Assembly: GCA_946478965.1 (NCBI GenBank)
Contig: CAMLDQ010000027.1
Location: 1-24,599 of the forward strand
Direction of reading: 5' to 3'
Length of the DNA: 24,599 bases
DNA from: an uncultured Methylobacillus sp.
Lineage (GTDB): Bacteria; Pseudomonadota; Gammaproteobacteria; Burkholderiales; Methylophilaceae
The notes beneath the pieces are model-generated. The model ran no database searches. It was not told where the DNA came from and saw only the letters and a list, made by a program, of their open reading frames with translations. Shown in pieces: positions 1 through 8,785 of the stretch (positions are counted from its first letter, which is position 1; every line of letters starts with the position of its first letter). The translations under genes were made by a program, and so were the position numbers.

Positions 1-1057
1 CCAGATCATGGCGGTGCCCTCGGTCTACCTCAACGGCCAGAAGTTCGGCGACGGCCGCATGGAACTGGGTGAAATCCTCGCCAGGATCGACACCAACGCC
101 GCGGCGCGCGACGCCGGCAAGCTATCGCAGAAGGATCCGTTCGACGTACTGATCGTCGGTGGCGGCCCGGCCGGCGCTTCCGCCGCGATCTACACCGCGC
201 GCAAGGGCATCCGCACCGGCATCGTCGCCGAGCGTTTCGGCGGCCAGGTGATGGATACGCTGGGCATCGAGAACTTCATCTCGGTAAAGGAAACCGAAGG
301 ACCCAAGCTGGTCGCGGCGCTGGAAGAGCACGTCAAGAGCTACGACGTCGACATCATGAACCTGCAGCGTGCCGAGCAGCTGACGCCGGGCGAAAACGGC
401 GGCTTGATGGAAATCCGCCTGACCAATGGCGCGGTGCTGAAGAGCAAGGCGGTGATCCTCGCCACCGGTGCGCGCTGGCGCGAAATGAACGTGCCGGGCG
501 AGAAGGAATACCGCGGCAAGGGGGTGGCCTACTGCCCGCACTGCGACGGCCCGTTGTTCAAGGGCAAGCACGTGGCGGTGATCGGCGGCGGCAACTCCGG
601 CGTCGAAGCGGCCATCGACCTCGCCGGCATCGTGGCCCACGTCACGCTGTTCGAATTCAACGACCACTTGCGCGCTGATGCCGTGCTGCAGAAAAAGTTG
701 CACACCCTGCCCAACGTCACGGTGATCTTGAATGCCCAGACAACAGAAGTGATGGGCGACGGCCAGAAAGTCAGCGGCCTCAACTACACCGACCGCGCCA
801 GCGGCCAGTGGCACCATATCGAGCTAGCCGGCGTATTCGTCCAGATCGGCCTGGTGCCCAACACCGACTGGCTGAAGGACACGGTAAATTTAAGCAAGTA
901 CGGCGAGATCGAGGTCAACGCTCACGGCATGACCAGCATCCCCGGCGTATTCGCTGCTGGCGACGTCACCACCGTGCCCTACAAGCAGATCATCACCGCG
1001 ATGGGCGATGGCGCGAAAGCGGCTCTCGGCACCTTCGACCATCTGATTCGTCATTGA
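1..1057 (+). CDS. ahpF: Alkyl hydroperoxide reductase subunit F, 3' part (N-terminus outside window)
   Basis: This FAD- and NAD(P)H-dependent disulfide reductase recharges the peroxiredoxin AhpC in the cytosol. The reading frame is open from base 2, so the gene starts before the window. About 351 residues are visible of a family length near 520. Counting from the Met at base 8, the first 30 residues finish the N-terminal thioredoxin-like domain ([10 protein letters not shown]). The FAD-binding GGGPAGAS lies at 51-58, the redox-active CPHC at 176-179, and the NAD-binding GGGNSG near 193. The C-terminal FAD motif [15 protein letters not shown] follows. The N-terminal domain remnant and the CPHCDGP motif distinguish AhpF from the shorter thioredoxin reductase. 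The gene ends in TGA and is followed by a 12-bp inverted repeat. ahpC would be expected upstream, outside the window. Confidence 0.95.
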
Positions 1058-1497
1058 TGCATTTGGCCGCTCCAAGGCATTTCCAAAAAAATTAACGGAA
1101 TGTGGCAAGACATGTAAATGTCTTGCCACGCCGAGCGCCTTACTCATTTCCGCACAAAACAACTCTGCACAACAAAACCGTATTGGAAGCTTTTCCCGGG
1201 GTTTCGAAAGTCATTTTGCCAGCATCAAGACAAGTTCCGGCCCACTTTATCCCCCTATACCGGTCGCCCGTTAAACGCATAAAAATCAAGCGCCAATTGA
1301 ATTAGCCAGAACTCCCTTTAGCAAACCTGGTCGCTAAATAAGCGGTGCCATCATGCTTTAACTTTCAGTTTCCGATCTTCCACTCGGCCTTCCATCATGC
1401 ACATCGTGATCGGGAAGCCTGCGCATTCGAATGAATGCAATTGCTCCACCCACCCGCCGCGGAATCCCGGAAACCGATGTCTGGAAAGGGGACACGC
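1058..1497. other. 440-bp intergenic region between ahpF and the DUF481 gene
   Basis: This stretch is AT-richer than the flanking genes. Apart from the inverted repeat at 1102-1129, I see no coding frame with a ribosome binding site. I also see no promoter with both -35 and -10 boxes good enough to call. It must contain the 5' leader of the DUF481 gene. In-frame start codons at 1435 and 1474 exist but lack a Shine-Dalgarno sequence. Confidence 0.5.
1102..1129. repeat. Perfect 12-bp inverted repeat downstream of ahpF
   Basis: GTGGCAAGACAT is followed by a four-base loop GTAA and the exact reverse complement. It could form a stable stem-loop at the 3' end of the ahpF transcript. No T-tract follows on the plus strand, so it is not a textbook intrinsic terminator. 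Read on the minus strand, a T7 run does occur about 11 bases after the stem. It may stabilise the mRNA end or act as a weak terminator. Confidence 0.6.
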
Positions 1498-2532
1498 ATG
1501 TCATTTCAAAGAACCATTTTTCTTCCACTTCTTGCCGCATGCCTTGCGGGCGGATTCAGCAAAATAACATCGGCCGATGAAGTCCGGCTCAAAAATGGCG
1601 ACCTAATCAAGGGCAAAATCATTAAGAAAGAAAGCGACAAACTGATATTCAAAACCGAATATGCAGGTGAAATTGGAATCGCATGGAGCGCCATATCCGG
1701 CCTGAAATCGGATCAGGCCCTGAATATCGTATTGACCAACGACAGCAGTTTTCGGGGGCCATTGACTGATGGTTCACCGGGAAAGGCGAAAATTGAGCTA
1801 GCGCAACGCAAAGGCAAGATCGAAGTCGATCTCAACAACCTCAAGTACATCAATCCAAGCCCGGTGGTGTCCGGCAATGGCGTGGACTGGCATGGCCGTG
1901 CGAACGCCGGAGGCGGCATCACCCAGGGCAACACCGACACTCAGACATTTCATGTCGACGCGGAAGCAATTGCCCGCACAAGGGACAACCGTTTCACCAT
2001 AGGCGCTGTCGTCAACCATGCCAAGAGTGATGGCATCGAGACCCAATTCAATAGCCGGAGTTACATGAAATACGATCATTTCCTGACCAAGAAATGGTAT
2101 CTGTATGCGAATAACACACTTGAGAATGACAAGTTTCAGGACCTCAATTTGCGCACGACGATCGGGGTCGGGAATGGCTACCAGATTTTTGAGAGTGAAG
2201 ACCTGAGTCTCGCAGTGGAAGGTGGCCTCAACTACGTCAGCACGGACTATCGGACTGGGGCGGATGAAAACTACCCGAGCGCTCGCTGGGCAGTCAAATA
2301 CGAACAGAAAATCTTCGGTGGGAACACGCGCCTGTTCCATGAACATCAATTGCTTCTAAGTCTGGAGGACATGAAAAACAATTTGTTCTTTTCCAAGACG
2401 GGGCTACGCTTTCCGCTGGGAAAGGGATTCAATGCCTCGACCCAGTACAACTTCGATTACACCCAAACACCAACCGACAGCCGCAAGCACTCCGATAGCG
2501 CCTTGCTGTTCAACCTCGGATACGATTGGTAG
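1498..2532 (+). CDS. Exported DUF481 (YdiY-like) outer membrane beta-barrel protein
   Basis: The protein has 344 residues. I chose ATG 1498 because a GGGGA lies seven bases upstream and the protein then begins directly with a signal peptide: MSFQRT, a hydrophobic stretch, and cleavage near ITSA-DEV (residues 25-27). Longer starts at 1435 or 1474 would bury the signal. Mature residues 27-75 form a small beta-rich, LSm/SH3-like segment (VRLKNGDLIKGKI). From about residue 125 the sequence fits DUF481: alternating aromatic and polar strands, the motif GGGITQGNTDTQTF, and an ending aromatic pair YDW typical of outer membrane barrels. The family is widespread in Proteobacteria with no settled function; a salt-induced outer membrane role was proposed for some members. 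It stands alone between two gaps. The assignment to the family is good; the function is unknown. Confidence 0.85.
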   Translation: MSFQRTIFLPLLAACLAGGFSKITSADEVRLKNGDLIKGKIIKKESDKLIFKTEYAGEIGIAWSAISGLKSDQALNIVLTNDSSFRGPLTDGSPGKAKIELAQRKGKIEVDLNNLKYINPSPVVSGNGVDWHGRANAGGGITQGNTDTQTFHVDAEAIARTRDNRFTIGAVVNHAKSDGIETQFNSRSYMKYDHFLTKKWYLYANNTLENDKFQDLNLRTTIGVGNGYQIFESEDLSLAVEGGLNYVSTDYRTGADENYPSARWAVKYEQKIFGGNTRLFHEHQLLLSLEDMKNNLFFSKTGLRFPLGKGFNASTQYNFDYTQTPTDSRKHSDSALLFNLGYDW

Positions 2533-2603
2533 ACAACGCGCCCCAGGCTCCAGAGCCGCCAGACAGGGCGACGCGCCGAACCGCGCAAAATGCTGATCCC
2601 CGG

Positions 2604-2634
2604 TTCATGAAAATCAGCAGCCGCCTTTCATGAA
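2604..2634. promoter_or_regulatory. Two TTCATGAA palindromes 23 bp apart upstream of pqqA
   Basis: The self-complementary octamer TTCATGAA occurs at 2604-2611 and again at 2627-2634, about two helical turns apart. A further inverted pair, TACCTG (2644-2649) and CAGGTA (2661-2666), lies just downstream and overlaps a possible -10 box, TATAGT, at 2665-2670. I see no good -35 box, which would suit an activator-dependent promoter. The regulator is unknown and the regulatory role is inference. Confidence 0.35.
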
Positions 2635-2690
2635 GTAGCCGAATACCTGAACGATTTGCCCAGGTATAGTTGGTTTCAGGGGGAGAGACA

Positions 2691-2732
2691 ATGATTCCCG
2701 ATACCCAACAACCGATTAAAAAAGGAGACTGA
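2691..2732 (+). CDS. Possible 13-codon leader ORF upstream of pqqA
   Basis: ATG at 2691 follows the purine-rich GGGGGAGAGACA, a credible Shine-Dalgarno sequence. It encodes MIPDTQQPIKKGD and stops at TGA 2730-2732, two bases before the pqqA start. The pqqA ribosome binding site (AAAGGAGA, 2721-2728) lies inside its last codons. Translation of the leader would therefore pass over the pqqA initiation site and could couple or tune pqqA expression. I recognise no peptide family. It may be a chance ORF. Confidence 0.3.
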   Translation: MIPDTQQPIKKGD

Positions 2733-2734
2733 CC

Positions 2735-2806
2735 ATGTGGACCAAACCTGAAGCTACCGAAATGCGTTTCGGCTTTGAAGTGACCATGTACGTCTGCAAC
2801 CGCTGA
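2735..2806 (+). CDS. pqqA: PqqA, precursor peptide of pyrroloquinoline quinone
   Basis: This 23-residue peptide begins MWTKP, contains RFGFEVTMY and ends CNR. Length and pattern match classical PqqA. Glu15 and Tyr19 (E-V-T-M-Y) are the two residues that the radical SAM enzyme PqqE cross-links while PqqD holds the peptide; both become part of PQQ. The preceding AAAGGAGA (2721-2728) is a strong ribosome binding site with six-base spacing. A strong terminator follows 21 bases after the stop. The usual partners pqqB, C, D and E are not here, so either the maturation genes lie elsewhere or the peptide is an orphan. PQQ serves periplasmic alcohol, methanol and glucose dehydrogenases. I am confident of the identity because of the exact length and the spacing of the two modified residues. 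Confidence 0.9.
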   Translation: MWTKPEATEMRFGFEVTMYVCNR

Positions 2807-2827
2807 TCCCCATACGGTTGCAAGTAG

Positions 2828-2850
2828 ACGGGGGCTGCGGCCCCCGTTTT
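2828..2850 (+). terminator. Intrinsic terminator after pqqA
   Basis: ACGGGGGC pairs with GCCCCCGT across a TGCG loop, an eight-base-pair GC-rich stem, followed by TTTT. It sits between pqqA and the metallopeptidase gene. Most transcripts from the pqqA promoter should end here, giving a short abundant pqqA mRNA. Readthrough could feed the next gene at a low level. Confidence 0.85.
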
Positions 2851-2877
2851 CATTCCCCCGTTCACCAGGAGCCGATC

Positions 2878-4119
2878 ATGACTGCAACGACCACGCTTTT
2901 TCTCGCCCTGCTTGCCGCCACCGTCGCCGTGCGCCTGTGGCTGGGCCTGCGCCATGTCGGCCACATCGTCGCACACCGCGACGCCGTTCCGACACCTTTT
3001 GCCGCCAGCATCCCCTTGGCCGCGCACCAGCAGGCCGCAGACTACACGGCCGCCAAAACACATCTCACGATCATACAAGCTGTGGCGCAGACGCTGCTGC
3101 TGGCCGTCTTGACCGTGGGCGGCGGGTTGCAGCTCCTCGACCATGCCTGGCGCGGCATGCTGCCCGACACGGAACTGCTGCGCGGTGCGCTGGTGATCGT
3201 GTCGGCGCTCATCATCAGCGGCCTGGTCGAAATCCCGTTCGATTACTACAAGCAGTTCACGCTGGATGAACGCTTCGGCTTCAACCGCATGTCGCGCGGA
3301 CTGTTTTTCGGCGACATCGCCAAGCATGCGCTGGTCGGCGCCGCCATGGGAGCACCGGTACTGTTTGTTGCGCTGTGGCTGATGCAGGCGGCCGGCAGTG
3401 CCTGGTGGCTGTACCTGTGGGTGGTATGGTCGGCATTCAACCTGCTGATGCTGGCGGTCTACCCGACCTTCATCGCGCCGCTGTTCAATAAATTCGAGCC
3501 GCTGCAGGATGACGCCTTGAAGCAGCGCATCGAGGCGCTGCTCGCCAAATGCGGCTTCCGCTCGCAAGGGCTGTACGTGATGGACGGCTCCGCGCGCAGC
3601 AGCCACGGCAACGCCTATTTCACCGGCTTCGGCGCCGCCAAGCGCGTGGTGTTCTTCGACACCCTGCTGTCGCGCCTGGCGCCGGACGAGATCGAGGCCG
3701 TGCTGGCGCACGAACTCGGGCACTATCACCATCGCCATGTATACAAACGTATCGGCATGCTTTTCGCAGCAAGCTTCGCCGGTCTGTCCCTGCTCGGCTG
3801 GCTGATTGGCCAGCCCGGGTTCTATACCGGGCTCGGAGTGGAGACTCCCAGCCATTACATGGGCCTGCTGCTGTTCCTGCTGGTGAGCCCGGTGTTCATG
3901 TTTTTGCTGCGCCCGCTGCTATCCGGCTATGCGCGCCGGAACGAATTCGAGGCCGACACCTATGCCGCCGCGCACGCGAATCCGCAACGCCTGGTGGATG
4001 CACTGGTCAAGCTGTATCGCGACAACGCCTCCACGCTGACGCCGGATCGCCTGCACTCCGCGTACTACGACTCGCATCCGCCGGCCAGTGCGCGTATCGC
4101 GCGCTTGCAGGCGGCATAA
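2878..4119 (+). CDS. M48 family membrane zinc metallopeptidase (Ste24/CAAX protease 1-like)
   Basis: The protein has 413 residues from ATG 2878, which has AGGAG six bases upstream. An in-frame TTG at 2818 has no such site and overlaps the terminator stem. The zinc motif HELGH is at residues 278-282 (H278, E279, H282), and NEFEAD supplies the likely third ligand, Glu358. Several hydrophobic segments (roughly residues 1-20, 60-85, 100-115, 150-205, 300-320 and 330-350) place it in the inner membrane with the active site between membrane helices, as in Ste24p. The N-terminal Ste24 domain (FDYYKQFTLDERFGFN) supports this subfamily rather than HtpX. Bacterial members are thought to act in membrane protein quality control; no substrate is established. 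Only a terminator separates it from pqqA, but PQQ pathways are known to use M16-type, not M48, peptidases. Confidence 0.92.
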   Translation: MTATTTLFLALLAATVAVRLWLGLRHVGHIVAHRDAVPTPFAASIPLAAHQQAADYTAAKTHLTIIQAVAQTLLLAVLTVGGGLQLLDHAWRGMLPDTELLRGALVIVSALIISGLVEIPFDYYKQFTLDERFGFNRMSRGLFFGDIAKHALVGAAMGAPVLFVALWLMQAAGSAWWLYLWVVWSAFNLLMLAVYPTFIAPLFNKFEPLQDDALKQRIEALLAKCGFRSQGLYVMDGSARSSHGNAYFTGFGAAKRVVFFDTLLSRLAPDEIEAVLAHELGHYHHRHVYKRIGMLFAASFAGLSLLGWLIGQPGFYTGLGVETPSHYMGLLLFLLVSPVFMFLLRPLLSGYARRNEFEADTYAAAHANPQRLVDALVKLYRDNASTLTPDRLHSAYYDSHPPASARIARLQAA

Positions 4120-4123
4120 CAAG

Positions 4124-4144
4124 GGGCCGGCGGCCCTGGTTTTT
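4124..4144 (+). terminator. Probable terminator after the M48 gene
   Basis: GGGCC, loop GGC, GGCCC, then TGGTTTTT. The stem is only five base pairs and the T-run starts after three bases, so this is a modest intrinsic terminator five bases after the stop codon. Confidence 0.5.
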
Positions 4145-4214
4145 ACCGCTCTTCCGCCGGCACCTGTTCCTGGTCGACGAGATGATCCAGCACCTGCAGG
4201 AAACTGCTCAGACT
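4143..4214 (-). pseudogene. Possible 3' remnant of an unidentified gene
   Basis: Read on the minus strand, this segment ends in TAA (4145-4143). Before it, it translates as LSSFLQVLDHLVDQ and then EQVPAEER, GC-rich and with the codon choice of a normal gene of this genome. Further upstream the frame gives Cys-rich, unprotein-like sequence with no usable start. It may be the tail of a convergent gene that was cut when the AT-rich WG-repeat gene arrived. I could not name the parent gene, and chance coding is possible. Confidence 0.25.
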
Positions 4215-4331
4215 AGGAGTGCAGACAAGGTACAAGCACGCTTGAAAGTGTCTAGTGCGGGCGGGGCGACAGGCTATTCCAAAGACCCAACCGATCAATC
4301 TTGCACCTCAAGAATTAGCCGAGGTAAAAGA

Positions 4332-6755
4332 TCAATATTTTGCGCCTTTTGCTTTAAGCAACTGAATGATCTCAGGGTTATTGGTCAAGCTCAAAGCCGT
4401 ATTGCCTTTGATAGTGCTTTTATTCACATCTGCACCGCTGTCCAGCAACAGTTTCACCATCGCTACATTGTCGTTGCCGCTTGCAAACATCAAAGGAGTT
4501 ATATGCGCATCGAAAAGTGAAAAATCAACGTCACTGCCAATAGACGGCGAAGAAATTGGCGTCATAACATTTACTTTTGCACCCTTAGCAATTAATAGCC
4601 TCGCAACTTCGACATTACCTTGATTGGCCGCCATATTAAGTAATGATCCATATCTATCGTCTGGATTGTTTGGATCTGCGCCACGCTCGAGTAAAGCGCG
4701 CACCATATCAGGCTTAGAGCGCATAACTGAAACGACAATAGCGCTCGCCTCAGAGACATCCAGCTTGCCTTTGTTTTGCTTCAATGCAACCTGAAAAAGA
4801 TCATCTCGATCTTTATAGATCGTCCAGGCAATAGGGCCGAGTTGCACTTGATGGCCGTATATATTTTCCGTTTTAGCTGGTGGAATTACTTTCCCACCCC
4901 GACTCACTAAGAGTTTGATCACTTCGTCATCATCTTTTGAGGTCATCATCAGCGGCGTCAGATCTGGTGCCCCCTTATTGGGGTCCGCCCCATGGTCAAG
5001 CAGCATTTCAGCCCACATCTTGCGGTCGTATTGCTCTGCGTCGATTGTGTCGCAGTGCATATCTCCGTACGCAGATTTCCCGCATGCCCGTATCTGACCT
5101 TGAGGCTTATAGGTCACAACGAAGCCGAGTGGTGTCATTCCTAATTTTGTTGCGGCATTCGGGTTGGCGTGATGCTCCAGCATTGCAATCACAAGTGAAG
5201 GGCTTTTTAATGCCAGTGCCTTCATCAGCAGTGGGTTAGTTCCATTGATGTTTGGATTGGCCCCAAGGGCAATCAGAGTCATCGCGAGTTCTGGTTTGCG
5301 TTCCTCGATTGCCTTGCCAAGTATAGGCCGCGTACTGTTAGGAGGAATACCATTAGGGTCTGCGCCATTTGCAACCAGAGCTTTAATTGTTTCGATCTGG
5401 TGATTAATAAACGCCTGTTTTTCTACATCGCCGACTCCTTGAGGTGGCCAACTATCAATTACTTTATACAGACTGCTCACATCGCCCTTGGAAATTGCTC
5501 GCCGGTTAGATCTGATTGCCTCGGCATCCAAGCTATTAACTGCATTGGACATTCGGATGCAATCAACAACCCGCTGACCATCCGCCGGCCAGATGACTTG
5601 ATTATTGCCATTCATGACAATCGTGGAACCACAACCGCTCATTGGGATAGCAACAACATGACCCTTAGTATCGATAAACCCTCGAATATTCTGGAGCGTT
5701 GCTAAAGCGAGGCCCGAGCTTCCGAAAGGCTGCACAGCATTGAATTTCGGTGGGATGACCATATCGCCTTTGGTATTGATATAGCCCCATTTTCCATCTA
5801 TCTTCACCTGCGCTAAGCCATCCGAAAATGAGGAGGCACCTTCGAAGCCAGGCTTAATAACGAATTGTCCTCTCGTATCGATAAAGCCATACTTCTTGCC
5901 ATCAACACTGGCATAAGCGAGTTGATCATCATAAAACCAACCTGCATCTTGAAATTGCGGCTCGATTGCGAAACGTCCTTGAGTATCGACAAAGCCTATT
6001 TTTCCATCGACAGCCTCTTTCGCTAAGCCCTGAGAACCAAAAATCAGACTCTGGTTAAACTTGGGCTCAATCACGAACTTACCCGTTTTATCTATAACGC
6101 CCCACTTCTTATCTATACTTACTGAAGCAAGGCCATTCGCTTCAAAGGTTAGTGCGCGGTCAAAAGAAGGTGGGATGACGATTTCTCCATTGATATCTGT
6201 GTAGCCCCATTTACTCCCAATTCGAAAGGTAGATAGCCCGTAAACCGGGCCACTGATATCTTCGAATTTAGGCTTTAAGACGAGGTTGCCATTACTGTCA
6301 ATTAACCCCCACTTCCCACCAATATTTACAGATCCAAAATTGTTCTCTTTTCCCCAACTAAAGCAACTTGCCCAATTGTATTGGGGCTGAATAACGAAAG
6401 CTCCCTTAGTGTTGATAAAACCCCATCTGCCATTCAGTTTCGCAGGATGAAACTCACCTTTACCACAGAAATGGACGCCCTCGAATTGTGGTGCAACTGC
6501 CATCTCACCATTAGAATCAATCAACCCCCACTTGCCGTTGAGCAACACTGCGGCCATTTCCCTTCCACGGAATCCCTCAGCTTGCTCAAATTGCGGATCA
6601 ACAACCATATGCCCCTGCAGGTCGATATAGCCCCATTTATCGCCCACATCAATTGGAAGGATCTTATCTGCAGGCGCAGCATAAGCAGTGAAAGAGCGAA
6701 TTACTGCAAAGAGAGAAATTACAAGAAGGGATAGGCCCGAATTAATTTTTCTCAT
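4332..6755 (-). CDS. Exported WG-repeat and ankyrin-repeat protein
   Basis: The protein has 807 residues. Residues 1-27 form a signal peptide (hydrophobic core LSLLVISLFAVI, cleavage near AYA-APAD). Residues about 40-380 hold ten WG repeats of roughly 35 residues, each like KWGYIDxxGxxVxxPxF, predicted to be short beta-strands. Residues about 430-807 hold ankyrin-type units marked by NGADPN, LGANPN, HGADPN, ERGADPN and DSGADVN. An insert near 560-590 contains Cys residues. Both repeat types are binding scaffolds; no catalytic motif is visible. The export signal argues for a periplasmic or surface role. The gene is clearly AT-richer than its neighbours and stands alone between a terminator and a possible gene remnant, which suggests horizontal acquisition. 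The ribosome binding site is weak (AAAAAGA). The partner is unknown. Confidence 0.88.
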   Translation of the reverse strand: MRKINSGLSLLVISLFAVIRSFTAYAAPADKILPIDVGDKWGYIDLQGHMVVDPQFEQAEGFRGREMAAVLLNGKWGLIDSNGEMAVAPQFEGVHFCGKGEFHPAKLNGRWGFINTKGAFVIQPQYNWASCFSWGKENNFGSVNIGGKWGLIDSNGNLVLKPKFEDISGPVYGLSTFRIGSKWGYTDINGEIVIPPSFDRALTFEANGLASVSIDKKWGVIDKTGKFVIEPKFNQSLIFGSQGLAKEAVDGKIGFVDTQGRFAIEPQFQDAGWFYDDQLAYASVDGKKYGFIDTRGQFVIKPGFEGASSFSDGLAQVKIDGKWGYINTKGDMVIPPKFNAVQPFGSSGLALATLQNIRGFIDTKGHVVAIPMSGCGSTIVMNGNNQVIWPADGQRVVDCIRMSNAVNSLDAEAIRSNRRAISKGDVSSLYKVIDSWPPQGVGDVEKQAFINHQIETIKALVANGADPNGIPPNSTRPILGKAIEERKPELAMTLIALGANPNINGTNPLLMKALALKSPSLVIAMLEHHANPNAATKLGMTPLGFVVTYKPQGQIRACGKSAYGDMHCDTIDAEQYDRKMWAEMLLDHGADPNKGAPDLTPLMMTSKDDDEVIKLLVSRGGKVIPPAKTENIYGHQVQLGPIAWTIYKDRDDLFQVALKQNKGKLDVSEASAIVVSVMRSKPDMVRALLERGADPNNPDDRYGSLLNMAANQGNVEVARLLIAKGAKVNVMTPISSPSIGSDVDFSLFDAHITPLMFASGNDNVAMVKLLLDSGADVNKSTIKGNTALSLTNNPEIIQLLKAKGAKY

Positions 6756-6806
6756 TCTTTTTACGTCTTTTGATGTCCGGTTGTCACTACTATATGTGAA
6801 ATCAGG

Positions 6807-6833
6807 ATTACCAAGTACTACTTGGCTGGTAAT
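6807..6833. repeat. Nested palindrome upstream of the WG-ankyrin gene
   Basis: CCAAGTA-C-TACTTGG (6811-6825) is a perfect seven-base inverted repeat with one central base. It is nested in an outer pair, ATTACC (6807-6812) and GGTAAT (6828-6833). It lies about 50 bp upstream of the minus-strand start at 6755 and just after the htpG terminator, where an operator would be expected. A possible -10 box (TATAGT on the minus strand) lies between it and the gene, but I find no matching -35 box. Confidence 0.4.
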
Positions 6834-6842
6834 TCTTAAAAC

Positions 6843-6868
6843 AAAAGGCTGCCATTTGGCAGCCTTTT
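6843..6868 (-). terminator. Intrinsic terminator of htpG
   Basis: AAAAGGCTGCC, loop of four bases, GGCAGCCTTTT: a perfect 11-bp stem. On the minus strand it lies 18 bases after the htpG stop and is followed by GTTTTAAG, so it ends htpG transcription before the WG-ankyrin gene. The A/T ends make it nearly symmetric. Confidence 0.85.
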
Positions 6869-6886
6869 GGGTGAAGCGCGTCAGGA

Positions 6887-8785
6887 TTAGCCCATCAACG
6901 CCAGTAGCGAATTCAGCCGCTTCACGAAGCTTGCCGGATCCTCCAGTTGCCCGCCTTCGGCCAGCAAGGCCTGGTCGAACAGCAGATGGGCCCAGTCGGC
7001 AAAGCGTGCATCGTCGGCCTCGGCCTTGAGACGCGTCACCAACGCGTGCTTGGGGTTGATTTCCATGATCGGCTTGGCCCCCGTCCCTTTCTGGCCGGCA
7101 GCCTTTAGCAGGCGCTCCAGATTGGCACTCATGTCGTGCTCGCCCGTGACGATGCAGGCTGGGGAGTCGGTCAGGCGGTGCGTGACACGCACTTCGCGTA
7201 CCTTATCCTCACCCAGGATGGTTTTGACCTTCTCGACCAGGTCCTTGAATTCGTCTTCCGCCCGCTTCTGCGCTTCCTTGTCGGCCTCGTCTTCCAGTTT
7301 TCCGAGATCAAGATCGCCCTTGGCCACGGATTGCAGCTTCTTGCCTTCGAACTCGGTCAGGCCGCCCACCAGCCATTCGTCCACGCGGTCGGACAGCAGC
7401 AGAACCTCAATGCCCTTCTTGCGGAAAATCTCGAGGTGCGGGCTGTGCTTAGCCGCAGCAAAGGAATCCGCGGTAACGTAGTAAATGGCTTCCTGGCCAT
7501 CCTTCATGCGGGCGATATAGTCCTTGAGCGAGACGTTTTGCTCTTCTGTATCCAGATGCGTGGAAGCGAAGCGCAGCAGACCGGCGATCTTTTCCTTGTT
7601 GCCGAAATCCTCGGCCGGACCTTCTTTCAGCACGCGGCCGAATTCGTTCCAGAAGGTGGCGTACTTCTCCTTGTCGTTCTCGGCCATGTCTTCCAGCACG
7701 CTGAGCACCTTCTTCACGGAGCCGGCCTTGATGCCATCGATTTCCTTGGAATGCTGCAGGATTTCACGCGACACATTGAGCGGCAGGTCGGCGGAATCGA
7801 TCACCCCGCGCACGAAGCGCAGGTACTGCGGCATCAGCTGCTCGGCATCATCCATGATGAATACGCGCTTCACATACAGCTTGATCCCGTGGCGGCGTTC
7901 GCGGTCGTAGAGGTCGAACGGCGCGCGACCGGGAATGTATAACAGCGAGATGTATTCCTGCTTGCCCTCGACCCGGGTGTGGGACCAGGCCAATGGCTTG
8001 TCGAAGTCGTGCGCGACATGCTTGTAGAATTCCTCATACTGCTCTTCGCTGATGTCGTTCTTGGCCCGTGCCCATAGTGCGGAAGCCTGGTTGACGGTTT
8101 CATCCTCATCGGTCGGCACTTGCTCGCCGTCCTTCCACTCGGATTTCTTCATCACGATAGGCAGCGTGATGTGGTCGGAATACTTGCGCACGATGGACTT
8201 CAGCTTCCAGTCGTTGAGGAATTCGTCCTCGCCGTCCCTGAGATGCAGCACGATTTCCGTGCCGCGGCTGGCCTTCTCCACCGTTTCCAGCGTGTAGTCG
8301 CCGGTGCCGTCGGATTCCCAGCGCACGCCGTGCTCGGCGGTGAGGCCGGCGCGGCGCGTGGTCAGCGTCACCTTGTCGGCGAGGATGAAGGCGGAATAGA
8401 AGCCGACGCCGAACTGGCCGATCAGCGCGGCGTCCTTCTGCTGGTCGCCGGACAATTGGGAGAAAAATTCGCGCGTGCCGGACTTGGCGATGGTGCCGAT
8501 GTTGTCGATCACTTCCTGGCGGCTCATGCCGATGCCGTTGTCGGCAATGGTCAGCGTGCGGGCGGCCTTGTCGAAGGCGATGCGTACCTTGAGTTCGCTA
8601 TCGTTCTCGTACAGCGCACCGTCCGACAGGCCTTCGAAGCGCAGCTTGTCAGCGGCATCGCTGGCATTGGAGATCAGTTCGCGCAGCACGATTTCCTTGT
8701 TGGAGTACAAGGAGTGGATCATCAGGTGCAAAAGCTGTTTGACTTCGGCCTGGAAGCCCAGCGTTTCTTTGGTGGCGGTCGTCAT
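6887..8785 (-). CDS. htpG: Molecular chaperone HtpG (bacterial Hsp90)
   Basis: This 632-residue cytosolic ATP-dependent chaperone has the normal length for HtpG. The N-terminal GHKL ATPase domain (about 1-230) shows [14 protein letters not shown] with the catalytic Glu and Mg-binding Asn, DNGIGM, and the glycine-rich lid [11 protein letters not shown]. The middle domain follows (about 235-510) with the conserved [16 protein letters not shown]. The C-terminal dimerisation domain ends without the eukaryotic MEEVD tail. The start is supported by GAGGAAAC upstream. A sigma-32-type promoter lies about 55-80 bases upstream and a strong hairpin terminator follows, so htpG is probably a single heat-inducible transcription unit. 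Confidence 0.98.

Follow-up and report, generated by a model that had tools for sequence, protein, structure and literature searches.

The window, by which we mean the whole 24,599-nucleotide stretch of DNA analysed here, carries a solitary pqqA gene with its own upstream and downstream signals between a gene for a DUF481 protein and a gene for a membrane metallopeptidase of family M48 (Table 1). Beyond the WG/ankyrin-repeat gene that adjoins the latter, the window continues with common chromosomal genes, namely htpG, pdxJ, era, rnc, lepB, lepA, a Do-family protease gene, rseB and nadB. The encoded LepA is 92% identical to the LepA proteins of two genomes (G058 and G059) in our family set of 187 Methylophilaceae genomes. 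Together with the names that sources give to near relatives of the M48 protein (a Methylophilaceae bacterium and Methylotenera sp.), this places the host, a bacterium of a methanol-using type, in this family. The pqqA product, MWTKPEATEMRFGFEVTMYVCNR, had been recognized in the first-pass annotation as a canonical 23-residue precursor, and profile searches bear this out: it scores 44.6 bits against the NCBIfam equivalog TIGR02107 (PqqA; cut-off of 20, E value of 8.7e-12) and 41.4 bits against Pfam PF08042 (cut-off of 21.1), and its translation has the cross-linking residues Glu15 and Tyr19 in register with three residues between them. As that annotation also stated, the gene stands apart from pqqB–E: no PQQ proteins, PqqB–E included, were found among the 17 other window proteins (a subset of the open reading frames) scanned against NCBIfam. 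The genome of this organism presumably encodes PqqBCDE elsewhere.

Table 1. Features at and around the solitary pqqA gene (window coordinates)
Feature	Position	Strand	Basis
ahpF, C-terminal part	8–1057		
DUF481 protein	1435–2532		
Operator: degenerate palindrome TTCATGAAAATCAGCAG (2604–2620) and third half-site TTCATGA (2627–2633)	2604–2634	+	35.4 bits
Predicted −10 element, TATAGT	2665–2670	+	recurrent column position among pqqA copies
Ribosome-binding site, AAAAGGAGA	2720–2728	+	sequence
pqqA, 23-residue PQQ precursor peptide	2735–2806	+	TIGR02107 and PF08042 matches
Terminator-like hairpin with short T run	2826–2852	+	fold z = −2.52; not listed by consensus scan
M48 (Ste24/CAAX-type) membrane metallopeptidase	2878–4119	+	PF16491, 188.6 bits; PF01435, 122 bits
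807-residue protein with WG and ankyrin repeats, adjoining the M48 gene	4332–6755	−	

The signals around the gene are consistent with a separate transcription unit. The good ribosome-binding site noted in the first-pass annotation is present, and the gene is followed by a stem of 10 pairs closed by a 4-base loop (2826–2849), within a segment (2807–2870) that folds at −26.5 kcal/mol. Because the T run behind this stem is short (TTTTC) and a simple consensus scan did not list the hairpin, we retain the strong stem of the earlier description but not its strong terminator. Transcription is predicted to start at about position 2677. A sigma-70 scan returned no promoter upstream of the window pqqA, and no −35 element was seen in the window. 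The pqqA leader in the window folds no more stably than its shuffles (z = 0.73 and 1.05), and an Rfam search of positions 1–8000 gave one chance match (E value of 0.49).

Solitary pqqA copies are common among the relatives of this organism. Of the 187 Methylophilaceae genomes, 185 contain pqqA, 14 of them in one copy and 171 in two or more, with a maximum of 12; two contain none. A pqqE match is present in 172 genomes (168 above cut-off) and is usually single, with two or three matches in 14 genomes and none in 15 (0.7–2.6 Mb, with completeness not given). In a set of 88 pqqA copies with flanks, chosen rather than random and including the window, pqqB follows pqqA in 18 copies and is absent behind the other 70. 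Among the neighbors of these copies, 342 proteins in 198 clusters, two places recur: in one, the neighbors are an LplT-type transporter and an acyltransferase, with clusters of 12 and 11; in the other, they are PrmA and a DUF3426 protein, with clusters of 7. Most of the remaining neighbors occur once or twice. In the genome with 12 copies (G189), some, including L212 and L218, resemble one another over a stretch that reaches from well ahead of the operator described below to the terminator, which indicates recent copying of whole units. Five solitary copies (L086, L116, L131, L133 and L135) have inverted repeats of differing sequence in their leaders, just past the predicted start, and these may form an mRNA-stabilizing hairpin that is not evident in the window.

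This distribution agrees with the literature as far as the accessible text goes. Multiple pqqA genes alongside single copies of the other pqq genes are described as typical of Methylophilaceae, with 3–12 pqqA copies per genome and one exception (PMC4109929). Because this arrangement is already published for the family, the solitary pqqA in the window is of an ordinary, known kind. The same account and our counts, with many dispersed pqqA and usually one pqqE per relative, also support one proposal of the first-pass annotation, that the locus is a split one in which extra precursor is made apart from pqqB–E; the other, that the peptide serves in a different setting, found no support in this analysis. 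Excerpts of other reports suggest that separate pqqA copies matter: in strain FJNU-6, one of the two most highly expressed of five copies lies at a separate location (PMC9851590), and orphan pqqA copies of Methylorubrum extorquens respond to the form of lanthanide (PMC11317620). The orphan pqqA2 and pqqA3 genes of strain AM1 (PMC11317620) are likewise solitary, lie off the biosynthesis operon and have their own expression pattern, but they belong to another bacterial class, the accessible text mentions no operator, and we liken them to the window copy by description rather than by sequence. The accessible main text of a transcriptome study of three Methylophilaceae (PMC3728764) does not contain the term 'pqq'.

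Upstream of the pqqA copies we identified a 31-bp operator, which does not figure in the first-pass annotation and which consists of the palindrome CTCATGAAAATCATGAG followed by TTCATGA. An unsupervised motif search of the 220 bases that precede each of 87 pqqA copies, with the window left out and 10 random starts, returned nCTCATGAAAATCATgAGncgnnaTTCATGA at 31.9 bits, compared to 7.0–7.4 bits in three letter-shuffled sets (five random starts each). The first 17 bases of this motif form the palindrome CTMATGAWWWTCATKAG, whose arms covary, with CTAATGA paired with TCATTAG. The matrix reaches at least 19.7 bits in 86 of the 88 copies (87 of which are the training rows), solitary and pqqB-linked alike. 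In the window, which did not contribute to the matrix, the operator scores 35.4 bits at −131 from the start codon, and the next best site anywhere in the window scores 6.2 bits; the second half-site of the window palindrome has decayed (TCAGCAG for TCATGAG). Two divergent pqqA copies, L240 (G185:C12) and L245 (G058:C1:697839), both lack the operator; a further pqqE lies close to L245, in an arrangement of the pqqADE type.

Relative to the predicted start, the palindrome is centered near −65 and the additional half-site near −47, which we take to be the geometry of an activator's site. Beginning 61–62 columns past the operator start, a −10-like TAT[AG][AGC]T hexamer is present in 31 of the 68 copies that are not linked to pqqB and in none of the 18 linked copies, which have other bases there. 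We infer that the operator is bound by a single transcription factor that acts as an activator.

The operator recurs outside the training set. All 33 further Methylophilaceae pqqA copies that we scored reach at least 18.0 bits, a set in which one copy (L103) is also among the training sites and some of the genomes are closely related to those used for training; one more copy was excluded because its upstream DNA was too short, as was one region that contained no pqqA. The second family that we examined, to which a Dechloromonas genome belongs, is also betaproteobacterial; pqqA is present in 74 of its 249 genomes, and an unsupervised search of 32 copies returned TCATGAttTTCatGAGc at 21.9 bits (against 7.9). 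The first matrix reaches at least 9 bits in 30 of these 32 copies, compared to 1.7% of 953 background stretches. The copies tested outside the training set are the best loci of the searches rather than every copy.

Genome-wide, the operator is largely confined to pqqA. When at most three mismatches were allowed, the three-part pattern yielded 31 sites in 20 genomes (four of which had none), with 29 of the sites directly before pqqA; the reversed pattern yielded none. The palindrome alone, allowing one mismatch, yielded 38 sites in 10 genomes and none in the control, and 30 of them precede pqqA, including 24 of the 27 exact ones. Of the eight palindromes away from pqqA, one lies in G001 ahead of the gene for a PqqU-like receptor, two are upstream of glycine-zipper protein genes (G193 and G194), one is in a unit devoid of pqqA (G185) and four carry one mismatch. 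Operator sites elsewhere are thus few, and some have no visible link to PQQ.

The G001 receptor gene led us to a second group of genes with this operator. Its product has the PqqU profile NF041535 as its best NCBIfam match, at 554 bits and below the curated cut-off of 1200. Matches to NF041535 at an E value of 1e-90 or better occur in 107 of the 187 genomes, and none of the 187 exceeds the cut-off; we therefore refer to these proteins as PqqU-like and not as PqqU, and we consider PQQ to be their putative import substrate. We collected 50 receptor upstream regions, consisting of the 30 best-scoring and 20 chosen ones, the latter including G001, whose site had prompted the idea. An unsupervised search of these regions, two of which (L362 and L377) were slightly misplaced, returned TCATGAAAATCaTGATG at 18.9 bits, compared to 7.7 and 8.0 bits in two shuffled sets. 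The pqqA matrix itself reaches at least 14 bits in 26 of the 50 regions and at least 7 bits in 45, with five below that level. As background, 207 kb of 45 other loci contained two independent sites of at least 14 bits, one of which, an orthologous site, is repeated in 27 M48 loci and inflates this background; the unsupervised result is independent of the background. In two small genomes, a PqqU-like match lies ~1.5–1.8 kb after pqqE (G103:C1:594027-598542 and G099:C36:2011-6507).

These observations bear on a published view of PQQ uptake. PqqU, the TonB-dependent PQQ importer described in PMC12124388, resembles the G001 receptor by best match, with the score under the curated cut-off noted above. 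The accessible text of that report states that PqqU genes and PQQ operons are generally not syntenic, with four exceptions in Burkholderiales, and suggests from this that uptake and synthesis are independently regulated. The operator shared by pqqA and PqqU-like genes suggests instead, at the level of sequence, that in Methylophilaceae synthesis and uptake may be under common control without synteny.

Our preferred reading, to which we assign a probability of roughly 0.85, is that the feature in the window is a self-contained pqqA unit, one among several scattered in the genome that serve a shared PqqBCDE under a common regulator. Each unit would comprise the operator, a promoter with no clear −35 element, pqqA and a terminator, and would yield PqqA peptide as the substrate for one PqqBCDE set encoded elsewhere. 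A single transcription factor acting at the operator would activate these units, the window copy probably among the expressed ones, such that peptide supply could be both raised and tuned through copy number and the common regulator. One PqqA peptide is consumed per PQQ. In Methylovorus, according to work cited in the accessible part of PMC11317620, the availability of PqqA limits PQQ synthesis.

A wider proposal seems to us reasonably probable, although we hold it less firmly than the reading of the window unit: an undescribed transcription factor of Betaproteobacteria may run a PQQ regulon through CTCATGAWWWTCATGAG and TTCATGA, acting before nearly every pqqA, solitary or operonic, and before the gene for the PqqU-like receptor. 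Precursor supply and cofactor import would then answer to one signal, with the dispersed pqqA genes acting as dosage units of the regulon. What is new here is the shared operator before pqqA copies and PqqU-like genes, which points to a PQQ control system not previously described. The accessible text of PMC4109929, which concerns dispersed pqqA in the same family as the window, reports several copies alongside a single set of the remaining pqq genes and mentions neither a shared operator nor a link to PQQ uptake, unlike the present finding.

A shared operator that precedes almost every pqqA copy examined, and many PqqU-like genes as well, offers a direct route to the regulator and to the signal behind it. 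It bears on the reason for the many pqqA copies in methylotrophs and on PQQ production, as well as on the suggestion of independently regulated uptake and synthesis. In the accessible literature on orphan or multiple pqqA genes, operators, regulons and promoter motifs, which mostly excludes subscription journals, we found no description of the operator. A 2015 study by Ge et al. reportedly deals with the multiple pqqA genes of Methylovorus and could describe it.

A competing account of the motif is simple descent, in which units were copied together with their promoters and the conserved block is no regulator's site. Dispersed copies must indeed carry their flanks along, and some G189 copies resemble one another even well upstream of the motif. 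We nevertheless consider this account unlikely because the operator is conserved across pqqA copies while most of the flanking and following columns are not, both arms covary and the motif was recovered unsupervised before the PqqU-like genes and in another family.

Also improbable is that pqqA and the M48 gene form a functional pair in which the membrane protease would replace or complement the M16 peptidase in cleaving cross-linked PqqA. The first-pass annotation had correctly called the next gene a membrane zinc protease: both domains of the Ste24-type CAAX peptidases, Peptidase_M48_N and Peptidase_M48, are present, so the neighbor is not of the M16 type to which PqqF and PqqG belong. The protein has relatives of 79–93% identity, including one of 81% in a Methylophilaceae bacterium, and another relative comes from Methylotenera sp.; its best relative in our genomes (G001, 73%) has orn upstream and no pqqA. 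Indeed, all 30 Methylophilaceae M48 loci examined (L152–L181) have orn as a neighbor, unlike the window M48, and contain no pqqA within flanks of up to 1.5 kb. Neither six wider M48 loci (L183–L188) nor 80 further ones, searched with one strict pattern and mostly from other families that possibly have no pqqA altogether, contain pqqA.

The adjacency does recur once. In G056, the gene order is ahpC–ahpF–CMAS (cyclopropane synthetase family)–pqqA–M48; this M48 gene is split over two contigs with an exact overlap of 141 bases, and its product is 76% identical to the window M48 in the main part (271 residues) and 59% in the N-terminal part (167 residues). G056 also carries the usual M48 beside orn. 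In a tree built by a quick method, the window and pqqA-linked G056 copies fall outside the remaining 37 rows of the family, among which G001 appears twice. The fork is weak, with a support of 82; it was drawn open, and the long branches carry a flag. The window and G056 being the known holders of this divergent M48, both have pqqA adjacent, which is a point in favor of a pair. The first-pass annotation had named two findings as telling against its idea, a complete pqqABCDE operon elsewhere in the genome and a lack of conserved adjacency; pqqB-linked copies do occur elsewhere in relatives (18 of 88), but the adjacency is not unique to the window. Against a pair also stand the separate terminator-like stem of pqqA, the weak tree fork and the listing of pqqF and pqqG for Methylophilaceae in the accessible text of PMC4109929. 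In G058, a pqqA copy lies between the CMAS gene and ahpCF, so the place of pqqA near ahpCF is partly conserved. CAAX proteases reside in the membrane and PqqA in the cytoplasm, which likewise counts against pairing. An effect of the M48 enzyme on PqqA, such as cleavage, is possible but unsupported, and the likeliest reading of the M48 gene is that of an unrelated neighbor in one lineage, outside the pqqA unit.

That the solitary pqqA is a redundant or decaying duplicate with no function is about as improbable: one operator half-site in the window has eroded, but the peptide matches copies in G056 and G058 residue for residue, the operator scores 35.4 bits, the ribosome-binding site and terminator stem are intact, and the operator is kept across copies where most following columns are not.

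Returning to the regulated units that we favor, several loci merit mention. Six solitary pqqA copies (L191, L192, L193, L196, L199 and L200) are faced by a neighbor from one protein cluster, of which the one member scanned is of LysR type; we considered this gene as the operator's regulator and set it aside, as six copies are too few to name one. Two units have the operator, a −10-like site and a terminator-like hairpin with no pqqA frame (L317:2612-2640, G001:C25:302911; L318:2423-2451, G185:C18:156422; both on the minus strand), and both contain ATCTCCT, the complement of the pqqA ribosome-binding site. They may be relic units or small RNAs, possibly directed against pqqA; a strict pattern for such an RNA, run across the 187 genomes, recovered only these two sites and two chance-looking ones. 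The exact palindromes upstream of the glycine-zipper protein genes (L352, G193:C2:20097; L353, G194:C17:52300) mark possible regulon members, and the divergent gene at the G194 palindrome encodes a pentapeptide-repeat protein.
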